Assembly: GCF_003635045.1 (NCBI RefSeq)
Contig: NZ_RBXT01000001.1
Coordinates: forward strand, 3,906,001 to 3,970,000
Source of the DNA: Terracoccus luteus
GTDB taxonomy: Bacteria > Actinomycetota > Actinomycetes > Actinomycetales > Dermatophilaceae
DNA length: 64,000 nt
Reading direction: 5' to 3'
Below, piece after piece: positions 49,484-51,740 of this stretch. The notes below the pieces were generated by a model. That model saw only the letters and a program-made list of their open reading frames with translations. It was not told the DNA's origin and searched no databases. How positions within the stretch are numbered: position 1 is the first letter of the stretch; each line of letters begins with the position of its first letter. Both the position numbers and the translations under genes were made by a program.

Positions 49484-49695
49484 GTGTGGCTCCCTGTCGG
49501 GCGGTGGGCTCCCACCGATGATGCGCCGGTGAGGGTCCGGCGGCGGCTTCCTGACGTCCTCAACGCACGGATGTCACCGAATGTTCTCCGTCGGCCGCCG
49601 ACGGTCGGGTGGCCCGGCATCCGGGCTCGTCCCTCGTCGGGCCGTGGTGGGGTTCCGGACCGGCGGGTGCCGGGTCGGGCGTCCGTTTCAGGGCC

Positions 49696-49740
49696 GTGGC
49701 GGGGTGCGTGGCGGGGTGCGTGGCGGGGTGCGCGGCGGGG
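49696..49740. repeat. 12-bp tandem repeat; contents of the 49484-49808 gap
   Basis: GTGGCGGGGTGC repeated three times exactly and once in part. Just upstream (49632-49703) lie two diverged pieces of the 15171-type repeat. Apart from these and the promoter elements from 49765 on, the 325-base gap shows nothing. Confidence 0.85.
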
Positions 49741-49764: not shown

Positions 49765-49828
49765 GTCATGTCAGAACGGTGTTGACGTGACATCACTATG
49801 GTGTCATTGTGATGTGCATGGACATCAC
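49765..49828. promoter_or_regulatory. Promoter and repeated ACATCAC sites at the start of the RHH gene
   Basis: TATGGT (49797-49802) with 6 bases to GTG 49809 is a leaderless -10. The heptamer ACATCAC occurs at 49790-49796, inverted as GTGATGT at 49809-49815, and again at 49822-49828; the last two form a perfect inverted repeat over the start codon. A further imperfect inverted repeat, GTCATGTCA (49765-49773) with TGACGTGAC (49783-49791), covers the -35 area. Repeated short half-sites are what ribbon-helix-helix proteins bind, so autoregulation by the encoded protein is likely. Confidence 0.6.
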
Positions 49829-50351
49829 CGAACACGTCGAGGCCCTCCGCCGCGACTTCACCAGCACGGCCCGGGCCATGGGTCCGGAGGTCGAGGACGT
49901 CGCGCAGCGCATCGGCTTCGCCCTCGACTCGGCCGCGCGCCTCGCCCTGCTCGACGCGCTGTCGCACGCCGCGGCCGAGATCACGACCGCCCTCGAGGGC
50001 GCCTCGGTCGAGGTGCGGCTCGACGGCCGCGAGCCGGTCTTCGTCGTCGTCGGTGCCGGGCCGTCCGCCCTGTCCGACGAGACCGCGGCCATCCCGGCAT
50101 CCGGTGACACGACGGCCCTCGCCGTCGACGCCGAGGGCGCCGAGACCGCCCGCATCACCCTGCGCCTGCCCGACGCGCTCAAGACGCGGGCCGAGGAGCT
50201 GGCCGCGGGCCGGGGCCAGTCGCTCAACACGTGGCTCGTCGGTGCCGTGCGCGCCGCGACCACCGCCGTCGGCCCGGCCACGACGCAGGGGCCCGGCGCC
50301 CCCGGCCGCAACCGCCGCTCCAACAAGCGGGTGCAGGGGTGGGTGCGATGA
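49809..50351 (+). CDS. Ribbon-helix-helix (HicB/Arc-like) protein
   Basis: 180 residues. The N-terminal ~75 residues are helical ('EHVEALRRDFTSTARAMGPEVEDVAQRIGFALDSAARLALLDALSHAAAEITTAL'), a beta/disordered part follows, and residues ~115-155 are an RHH domain: 'ARITLRLPDALKTRAEELAAGRGQSLNTWLVGAVRAA', as in HicB antitoxins and CopG. No HicA-type toxin is next to it; instead a DUF4097 beta-repeat protein follows, so this is probably a regulator rather than an antitoxin. Start could be GTG 49809 (leaderless) or ATG 49812. Confidence 0.82.
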   Translation: MMCMDITEHVEALRRDFTSTARAMGPEVEDVAQRIGFALDSAARLALLDALSHAAAEITTALEGASVEVRLDGREPVFVVVGAGPSALSDETAAIPASGDTTALAVDAEGAETARITLRLPDALKTRAEELAAGRGQSLNTWLVGAVRAATTAVGPATTQGPGAPGRNRRSNKRVQGWVR

Positions 50352-50428
50352 GCGCCGCCCCGACCGGCACCACCACACCCACCAGCACCGACACCGACAC
50401 CACCACCGACCACAGCAGGAGGACGACC

Positions 50429-51298
50429 ATGACCGACATCGAGAAGCGCTTCGAGACCCCCGGCGCCGCGACGCTCACCGTCGAGGTGCAGCAGGGGGAC
50501 GTCACGCTCACGGCGGGCGACCGCACCGACACCGTCGTACGACTGGTCCCCCACGGCCGCAACGGCGAGGAGATCGCCGAGCGGTACACCGTCGAGGCGC
50601 ACGGCAGCGACGTCACCGTGACGGCGCCCAAGGGCCGCGACGGTCTCTTCTCCGGGCTCGGCTGGCGCGGGCACGTCGACGTCGTCGTCGAGCTGCCCAC
50701 CGGCAGCCGGGTCGACGCTCGCACCGGGTCGGGGGACGTCAGCGCCCACGGGCTGCTCGGTGACGTCCGGGCGCACACCGGTTCGGGCGACCTCTCGCTG
50801 CAAGACCTCGACTCCGCCGACCTCAAGTCAGGCTCGGGCGACGTCGTGGCCCGGGCGGTGGCGGGCGGCGTCTCCGCGAAGACCGGCTCCGGAGACATCA
50901 CCCTCGAGTCGGCCGGGGGCCACGTCGACCTCGTGTCGGGCAGCGGCGACCTCATGCTCCGCCGGGCGGAGGCGACGGCGCGGCTCAAGACCGGCTCGGG
51001 CGACGTGGTCGTCGGGTCGTCGGCGGGGGACCTCGACGTCATGACCGGCACCGGCGACGTCAAGCTCGAGGGCGTGCACGGGGGCGAGATCCGTGCCAAG
51101 ACCGGCACCGGTGACGTCGCGATCTTCGTCGCGGCGGGCGTCGCGGCCTACCTCGACCTCAACACGGTCACCGGCGACGTCGACGTGCACCTCGACGAGA
51201 CCGACGGCCCCGACGGCTCGGAGTCGCAGGCGAGCCTGGCCGTGCAGTCGGGCAGCGGCGACGTGCTCGTCAGCCGGGCCCGGGTGAGGGTGTCGTGA
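50429..51298 (+). CDS. DUF4097-family beta-strand repeat protein
   Basis: 289 residues, almost entirely short beta strands. The turn motif G-S-G-D or G-T-G-D recurs at least eight times (ARTGSGDVSA, AHTGSGDLSL, LKSGSGDVVA, AKTGSGDITL, LVSGSGDLML, LKTGSGDVVV, MTGTGDVKL, AKTGTGDVAI, VQSGSGDVLV), with a period of about 18-20 residues, consistent with a right-handed beta-helix or solenoid. No signal peptide. ATG 50429 is chosen for AGGAGG 7 bases upstream; ATG 50348, overlapping the RHH stop as ATGA, would add 27 Thr-rich residues. Function of the family is unknown. Confidence 0.82.
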   Translation: MTDIEKRFETPGAATLTVEVQQGDVTLTAGDRTDTVVRLVPHGRNGEEIAERYTVEAHGSDVTVTAPKGRDGLFSGLGWRGHVDVVVELPTGSRVDARTGSGDVSAHGLLGDVRAHTGSGDLSLQDLDSADLKSGSGDVVARAVAGGVSAKTGSGDITLESAGGHVDLVSGSGDLMLRRAEATARLKTGSGDVVVGSSAGDLDVMTGTGDVKLEGVHGGEIRAKTGTGDVAIFVAAGVAAYLDLNTVTGDVDVHLDETDGPDGSESQASLAVQSGSGDVLVSRARVRVS

Positions 51299-51465
51299 GC
51301 GCGCTCGTCGACCTCAACCAGGCACTCGCCCGCGAGCGCATCACCGGGATGCTCGCGCAGGCCCGCGACGACCACCAGTACCGCTCCGTGGTCCGCCGCC
51401 ACCCGCGCACCGCCGAGGTCCTGCGTCGCCTCGCCGACCGCCTCGACCCGACCACCACCCGCTGA
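51295..51465 (+). CDS. Small 56-residue basic protein coupled to the DUF4097 gene
   Basis: GTG 51295 overlaps the DUF4097 stop (GTGA). The product begins V-S-A-L-V-D-L-N-Q-A-L-A and is mostly helical, rich in Arg and Ala, with a C-terminal 'RTAEVLRRLADRLDPTTTR'. Codon positions keep the GC3 bias of real genes and the coupling supports translation. No family recognised; it could be a partner or regulator of the beta-repeat protein. Confidence 0.6.
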   Translation: MSALVDLNQALARERITGMLAQARDDHQYRSVVRRHPRTAEVLRRLADRLDPTTTR

Positions 51466-51610
51466 CCCGCCCGCCGGCCCCGATCAGATCCACCAGCCCA
51501 TCAACCGGCAAATCAACCGGCGGCCGGTGTCGCCCGAGCAGCACCGCACGCCCACTGATCCGCCAGTTGATGACGCGCAGATGGGTCTCGCGCGCCGAAC
51601 GGGCTGTGAA

Positions 51611-51740
51611 TGGGGCGGTGGTGTGAGCCCGATTCACTGGCGGTGCGGCAGCAAGCGTCGTCCGCGGGACCGGCCGGGGGTGGGGCGGTGGTGTGAGCCC
51701 GATTCACGGGCGGTGCGGCAACACAGCGGCGTCCGCAGGA
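51611..51740. repeat. Two ~60-bp direct repeats; contents of the 51466-51893 gap
   Basis: Copies at 51611-51669 and 51681-51740 (period 70) share TGGGGCGGTGGTGTGAGCCC and GATTCAC-(T/G)-GGCGGTGCGGCA. Just upstream ATCAACCGGC is directly repeated (51500-51509, 51512-51521). No gene or clear promoter is visible in the 428-base gap. Confidence 0.85.

Follow-up and report, generated by a model that had tools for sequence, protein, structure and literature searches.

We know of no established biochemical activity for Toastrack (DUF4097) proteins, and the locus described here raises the question of what such a protein might do when its gene directly follows that of a ribbon-helix-helix (RHH) DNA-binding regulator. 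The locus lies in the window, that is, the whole 64,000-nt stretch of the Terracoccus luteus genome (a single contig of 4.02 Mb) that was analysed. Judged from sequence comparison and structure models, it is reasonably probable that it is an autorepressed RHH-Toastrack operon, in which the Toastrack protein would bind the regulator through a C-terminal tail with a GW motif and alter its grip on DNA in response to a signal. The order is operator (49777-49817), RHH regulator, DUF4097/Toastrack gene and small open reading frame (ORF), and the coding features are the following:

49818..50351, + strand: RHH regulator, 177 aa, ATG at 49818; ATGGACATCACC encodes the protein start MDIT
50417..50422, + strand: Shine-Dalgarno sequence AGGAGG of the Toastrack gene, read from the sequence
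50429..51298, + strand: DUF4097/Toastrack protein, 289 aa, assigned by PF13349 match and structure model
51295..51465, + strand: basic protein of 56 aa with a GTG start; other members of its family have 73-117 aa

An earlier note had described a compact three-gene cassette here, with the small ORF coupled to the DUF4097 gene, and both points hold: all three ORFs are present in one direction, and the 56-aa ORF shares four nucleotides (GTGA) with the DUF4097 stop. The likely start of the Toastrack gene is ATG 50429, which AGGAGG precedes by six bases; a start at ATG 50348, overlapping the RHH stop, was rejected on account of this Shine-Dalgarno sequence. The start at 50429 leaves a gap of about 77 nt after the RHH gene, and the DUF4097 ORF probably does not overlap it.

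The regulator is composed of three parts, separated in the structure model by a low-confidence linker before the RHH helices and by a second low-confidence stretch that ends in the GW motif:

49827..50051, + strand: N-terminal domain, aa 4-78, modelled as two helices and a beta hairpin
50145..50270, + strand: ribbon-helix-helix DNA-binding domain, about aa 110-151, with the specificity residue T114 at codon 50157-50159
50328..50348, + strand: C-terminal tail RVQGWVR (GW motif), conserved among homologues

The N-terminal domain is modelled with block-mean pLDDT values of 83-97, and comparison of both structure and sequence found no solved relative of it at E<=0.001. The single-chain model has the RHH helices, but DSSP assigns no RHH strand in it; AtaR-type proteins, Mnt, VapB26, KacA, AmrZ and Arc matched by sequence at E 0.0019-0.1, and fold matches were weak (E 0.35-0.6 for the top three). 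The regulator is an RHH protein by its strand-helix-helix arrangement and its matches to solved RHH domains. Homologues occur in 35 of 119 genomes of the same family, in 138 of 394 class genomes (E<=1e-8) and in 54 of 296 phylum genomes (E<=0.001, with the weaker matches confined to the RHH segment); the phylum matches were examined as loci down to rank 30, and the class matches as 80 loci and 16 regions, some of them repeats. The best named relatives belong to Intrasporangium, Terrabacter, Humibacillus and Terracoccus, the source genus being represented by one genome in the compared set.

The best Pfam match of the regulator is HicB, at 20.3 bits narrowly under the cut-off of 21, and 42 of the 44 members of alignment A5 match HicB at E<=0.01. 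Together with the antitoxins AtaR and VapB26 among the nearest solved RHH domains, this affinity lends some colour to a toxin-antitoxin module, in which the RHH protein would be antitoxin to a toxin encoded by one of the other two genes; toxin-antitoxin operons are also autoregulated. We consider such a module highly improbable and rejected it because HicA is absent: the whole genome gave no HicA match at E<=1 in a search that was positive in 12 of 14 control genomes (7 over the cut-off), so that the HicB/Arc-like protein reported by the earlier note lacks a HicA partner in the cassette and in the rest of the genome alike. Furthermore, no antitoxin matched over the N-terminal domain with its two helices and hairpin, the constant partner of the regulator is a 289-aa beta-solenoid, the small protein was found beside the Toastrack gene in one family only, class-wide matches being weak, and none of the three proteins has a PADLOC match at E<=0.01. 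The likeness to HicAB is thus confined to an RHH segment distantly similar to Pfam HicB, whereas the HicA gene is missing and the N-terminal domain differs from the HicB fold.

The more probable role of the regulator, control of its own operon, is suggested by the DNA in front of its start codon, where the following elements can be read:

49777..49784, + strand: weak candidate for a further, degenerate box, CGGTGTTG, placed 11 bp upstream of box 1 in the register seen in relatives
49782..49787, + strand: -35-like TTGACG, read from the letters
49788..49795, unstranded: predicted operator box 1 TGACATCA, from the comparative TGRYRYCA array
49799..49806, unstranded: predicted operator box 2 TGGTGTCA, from the comparative TGRYRYCA array
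49805..49810, + strand: candidate -10-like CATTGT, read from the letters, with a 17-bp spacer from the -35
49810..49817, unstranded: degenerate operator box 3 TGATGTGC, in register 11 bp after box 2

The predicted operator is a series of 8-bp pseudo-palindromes, TGRYRYCA, at an 11-bp pitch, filling the promoter as far as the start codon. The upstream DNA of homologous genes (75 distinct regions out of 86) was scanned for TGRYRYCA with one mismatch allowed per box: 66 of the 75 carry at least two boxes exactly 11 bp apart and 28 carry three. The average over shuffled sequences was 0.04 loci, and elsewhere in these loci 8 of 1379 segments scored positive. Whether a motif is kept upstream of homologous cassettes had been set beforehand as a test, and the answer is this array before 66 of the 75 genes. 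In a larger set of 193 loci, representing 179 distinct proteins, a pair of boxes with no more than two mismatches in total was called for 169 of the 179, leaving ten proteins without a call (shuffles: mean 0.9, maximum 4). Because the start codon of each locus in this set was picked to optimise the box match, detection is slightly inflated, a bias for which the shuffle control was run. Left out of it were 26 loci that were duplicates of the window locus or had been fetched for other queries, and 5 loci in which no RHH motif could be detected or whose upstream DNA was too short. Of the 159 loci that extend far enough, 127 have a TTG no more than 9 nt 5' of box 1. In the best pair of boxes, the second one stops 10 or 11 nt short of the ATG chosen in 107 of 169 loci and touches this ATG in 30 of 169.

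In the proposed mechanism, RHH dimers would bind these boxes, with their TGAC or TGGT half-sites, at intervals of one DNA turn (11 bp) in the stretch from the -35 element to the start codon, and the bound protein would shut its own promoter. Since the boxes run to the ATG and leave little or no leader for a ribosome site, and since the position of the CATTGT element would place the transcript start at or beside the ATG, the operon transcript is probably leaderless; a consensus promoter scan of the region called no promoter, the CATTGT -10 included. The positions of the boxes make it likely that the RHH protein represses its own promoter. Box position alone does not prove repression, and the regulator could in principle be an activator or a nucleoid-type binder; both are very unlikely, because boxes that fill the -35/-10 spacer up to the start codon should, when bound, block RNA polymerase, and because an almost unique genomic site does not suit a nucleoid-type binder. 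Only two copies of the exact two-box pattern exist in the 4.02 Mb, one of them the cassette operator, so that this predicted repressor looks local. The other site, G000:C1:72395-72413 (L241), reads TGGTATCAGAGTGATACCA and lies between two long minus-strand open frames.

The earlier note had seen in the promoter and start codon three copies of ACATCAC in alternating orientation. The three copies are present (49790, 49809 on the minus strand, and 49822), and the heptamer is over-represented in the window (11 copies vs 3.6 expected; none of 100 shuffles reaches 11), but the unit of the array is the 8-bp box at 11-bp pitch. The first two copies fall in operator boxes; the third was rejected as an operator, being made of the codons of the protein start M-D-I-T. 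Among the 75 upstream regions, ACATCAC follows the ATG in 31 of 31 MDIT genes, in 0 of 14 MDLT genes and in no gene with another start.

The case for binding is strengthened by variation in the boxes themselves, which read TGGCGCCA or TGGTGCCA instead of TGACGTCA in the large-genome family code f5 and in some members of nine other codes. This switch tracks the residue at the centre (X; T114 in the window) of the RHH strand, R-x-X-x-R. When each operator is typed by A vs G at base 3 of the half-sites, four per locus from its best two boxes, proteins with Asn have at most one A (G-type, TGG) in 43 of 44 loci, those with Thr at least two A (A-type, TGA) in 96 of 98, and those with Ser also reach two or more A in 23 of 26. 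Pooled half-sites number 15 A and 149 G for Asn, 286 A and 88 G for Thr, and 68 A and 35 G for Ser; the Fisher p of 9e-33 for Asn vs Thr ignores relatedness. Kinship inflates such raw counts, and the other alignment columns serve as a control that shares the same history: the strand residue carries 0.657 of the 0.861 bits of operator type, and the next best of 158 columns 0.393. A tree built with the specificity residue masked has five changes on the best tree and one independent pair on well-supported branches, and it supports a single independent Thr/Asn switch; the Ser class is intermediate, Thr vs Ser showing no consistent direction on the tree.

The specificity residue aligns with Mnt residue 8 (by alignment) and Arc residue 11 (by matched ranges), and thus sits at the same strand position as Asn8 and Asn11 of these RHH proteins. 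Unlike Arc and Mnt, the cassette RHH protein has an N-terminal domain, a GW tail, a tandem operator with 11-bp pitch and a Toastrack partner. In Arc, Gln9, Asn11 and Arg13 contact bases (PMC12645479). It is the residue-to-base correlation, combined with this alignment to a base-contacting Arc position, that makes it very likely that the RHH protein binds its own promoter, with strand residue 114 (here Thr) predicted to read base 3 of each half-site. That the RHH protein regulates its own gene, as the earlier note had proposed, is very likely on the comparative evidence of the operator array and the correlation.

The partner of this presumed repressor is a clear member of DUF4097, with 94.7 bits against PF13349 (cut-off 22.9), and it contains nine G[ST]GD turns, in agreement with the solenoid of at least eight GSGD/GTGD turns noted earlier. 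Its predicted structure (pLDDT 89.6) is all-beta but for one short helix and matches 19 PDB chains at E<=0.001 (best E 1.8e-7), mostly entries named putative adhesin or putative pectinase; these include 4OPW (E 7.8e-6) and 4QRK (E 1.6e-5), with TM-scores of only 0.21-0.46. The NCBIfam model LiaG (NF049997) also matches, since LiaG of the Lia-PSP systems shares the Toastrack domain, but its 55.3 bits are far under the LiaG cut-off of 285, and neither the RHH nor the small protein matched any Lia or Psp model in Pfam or NCBIfam. A second, weakly similar DUF4097-type stretch is found elsewhere in the genome (G000:C1:3138518-3138898, L002; E 4e-6).

The pairing is nearly obligate. Among loci with at least 900 nt of downstream sequence, a Toastrack gene follows 171 of 174 RHH genes, its frame beginning within 400 nt of the RHH gene except in L099, where about 0.9 kb intervene. 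Of 179 distinct homologues, 164 have the GW motif within 12 aa of the C terminus, and its distribution suggests a tail that works for the Toastrack partner and not for DNA binding. Four solitary RHH genes, all of family code f6 (L225-L228, from G742, G650, G351 and G168), have no Toastrack match in the 1.4-3.3 kb downstream, and all four of their proteins are without the tail, whereas three f6 RHH proteins that are followed by a Toastrack protein (L166, L194, L222) retain it; the two solitary loci in the 75-region scan, L058 and L063, keep their boxes. Contrary cases exist: seven of the 171 RHH proteins with a Toastrack partner have no G-aromatic tail (L066, L067, L070-L073, L102), three more (L235-L237) bring the tail-less cases to ten, mostly from distant lineages, and at L171/L229 the RHH protein has the GW tail although no Toastrack gene lies nearby; the genome of this locus encodes an RHH-Toastrack pair elsewhere (L199).

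These data led us to propose that the Toastrack beta-solenoid, which would be cytosolic, docks on the GW tail of the regulator and changes its grip on DNA upon an envelope or drug signal. Near-obligate pairing and a conserved tail indicate partnership and not its direction, and the Toastrack protein could instead be a mere structural or co-repressor subunit that strengthens DNA binding, as toxins do for antitoxins, and senses nothing. We regard such a subunit as unlikely: Toastrack proteins elsewhere stand beside membrane sensors and exporters (PMC11237479), which favours signalling, and the solitary RHH loci L058 and L063 keep their boxes, so that the Toastrack protein is not needed for the site to persist.

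If the signalling function is correct, the released operon would in many actinobacteria make an ABC exporter. A P-loop gene lies downstream in at least 52 of 161 loci with at least 1450 nt of downstream sequence, a count that is based on patterns and not on a family model and to which many loci that end too early contribute nothing; 51 of the 52 have NG[AS]GKTT (ABC-type), the remaining one being caught by a looser pattern, and 45 of the 52 show an SGG within the sequence covered. Such genes are found chiefly in family codes f5 (18 of 23) and f88 (13 of 17), and in none of the 16 named Intrasporangiaceae-type loci, for which 14 were checked over at least 3.69 kb, L090 over 3.26 kb and L088 over 0.71 kb. 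In the window, reading beyond the small ORF revealed no long same-strand ORF resembling an ABC gene. For the Intrasporangiaceae, where no ABC gene follows, the small basic protein is the proposed third product.

The small gene, with its 4-nt overlap of the Toastrack stop, is present in all 16 named intact loci (L074-L088, L090; L089 is cut by a contig end), and in all ten relatives of the same clade (L004-L012 and L014, which overlap the named loci; L013 is cut). Its relatives, of 73-117 aa against 56 in the window, share the core A-R-x-x-I ... R-x-A-x-x-L-R-x-[LI]-A-x-R-L-D, and a profile built from the other 16 gives the window protein 38.2 bits; conservation of the small ORF, a test fixed in advance, is borne out by these 16 loci and by the profile match. 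Its dN/dS is 0.09-0.22 in all ten pairs of L080, L081, L083, L084 and L087 and higher in the other ten listed pairs (0.39-0.62, with 1.24 for the window vs L074), and the median pN/pS over all 136 pairs is 0.63. A single-protein search found the small protein in 10 of 119 family genomes, its own included; outside the family, the profile gave weak matches (E 7e-5 to 4e-3) in 10 of 296 class genomes besides its own, 7 of the 10 inside open frames of more than 240 aa. On this pattern of conservation we take the small gene to encode a translated third product, standing where many relatives have an ABC gene.

Two further ideas about the small protein were set aside. After its TGA, 30 in-frame codons (51466-51558) end in RAAPHAH and a stop, like the tails of relatives; truncation of the gene, with this stretch as a remnant tail, was rejected, as 509 of 1000 shuffled tails score as well. 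An amphipathic helix is suggested in the window protein (31 of 1000 shuffles as high), but a role as membrane tether is not claimed, the signal being absent in L084 (317 of 1000 shuffles).

Toastrack/DUF4097 proteins are pan-bacterial and have been proposed as platforms for sub-membrane signalling complexes, and a similar Toastrack-ABC operon with an RHH factor in Actinobacteria is described in one sentence (Ravi et al. 2024, PMC11237479). As in that operon, the RHH gene of the cassette adjoins the Toastrack gene, and an ABC-type P-loop gene then follows in the relatives counted above; unlike it, the cassette has no ABC ATPase or permease and has the small gene in third place. The operator, the specificity residue, the tail motif and the small gene do not appear in the section of the article on this operon, the details of which stand in the supplement (PMC11237479). 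The RHH-Toastrack kind is thus already known but barely described, and the Intrasporangiaceae form with the small gene is a variant of it.

A regulator and a DUF4097 protein also share an operon in Listeria, where lltR-lmo0600-lmo0601 encodes a PadR, a DUF1700 and a DUF4097 protein, all three genes are more than 100-fold up in the lltR* mutant, and deletion of lmo0600 restored growth at 6 C (PMC6624303). Unlike the cassette, the Listeria operon has a PadR repressor and places the membrane DUF1700 protein between the two (PMC6624303). In the lunaemycin cluster of Streptomyces lunaelactis, the 177-aa Lun1 of unknown function adjoins the DUF4097 protein Lun2, and a further DUF4097 protein is listed at another place in the cluster, beside a DrrA-type ABC ATPase (PMC9866976); our guess would be that Lun1 is an RHH protein of the present regulator family.

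What makes the locus important is that a Toastrack protein is here almost always tied to a regulator, and that the sequence reveals the probable binding site and specificity residue of this regulator; the effect of a Toastrack protein on a transcription factor could thus be tested directly in a soil actinobacterium. A one-residue code, if true, would allow targets to be predicted in the many genomes that carry such pairs beside exporter genes, and we regard this T114-operator code and the GW tail as a link between transcription factor and Toastrack as the most notable points. A wider generalisation, which we offer tentatively and with some doubt, is that RHH-Toastrack pairs are a widespread, self-contained, one-operon stress relay, in which the soluble solenoid would capture a DNA-bound repressor by its GW peptide, a single residue would set the operator (Thr/Ser for TGA, Asn for TGG) and the third gene would be an exchangeable output slot, filled by an ABC exporter in many lineages and by a new small basic protein in Intrasporangiaceae.

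A few minor observations may be added. Contigs L098, L099, L101, L103 and L104, labelled Phenylobacterium, Caulobacteraceae, Proteobacteria or Alphaproteobacteria MAG, also carry the RHH-Toastrack pair with a box array, through either horizontal transfer or misassignment of the contigs. Just downstream of the cassette lies a pair of 40-nt direct repeats (window 51611-51650 and 51681-51720, 39 of 40 positions identical), and the 113-base stretch that contains them (51608-51720) has no other copy in the genome. Upstream of the operator, a short tandem repeat with a 12-bp period, CGTGGCGGGGTG, occupies 49695-49740, with 22-nt copies at 12-bp spacing.
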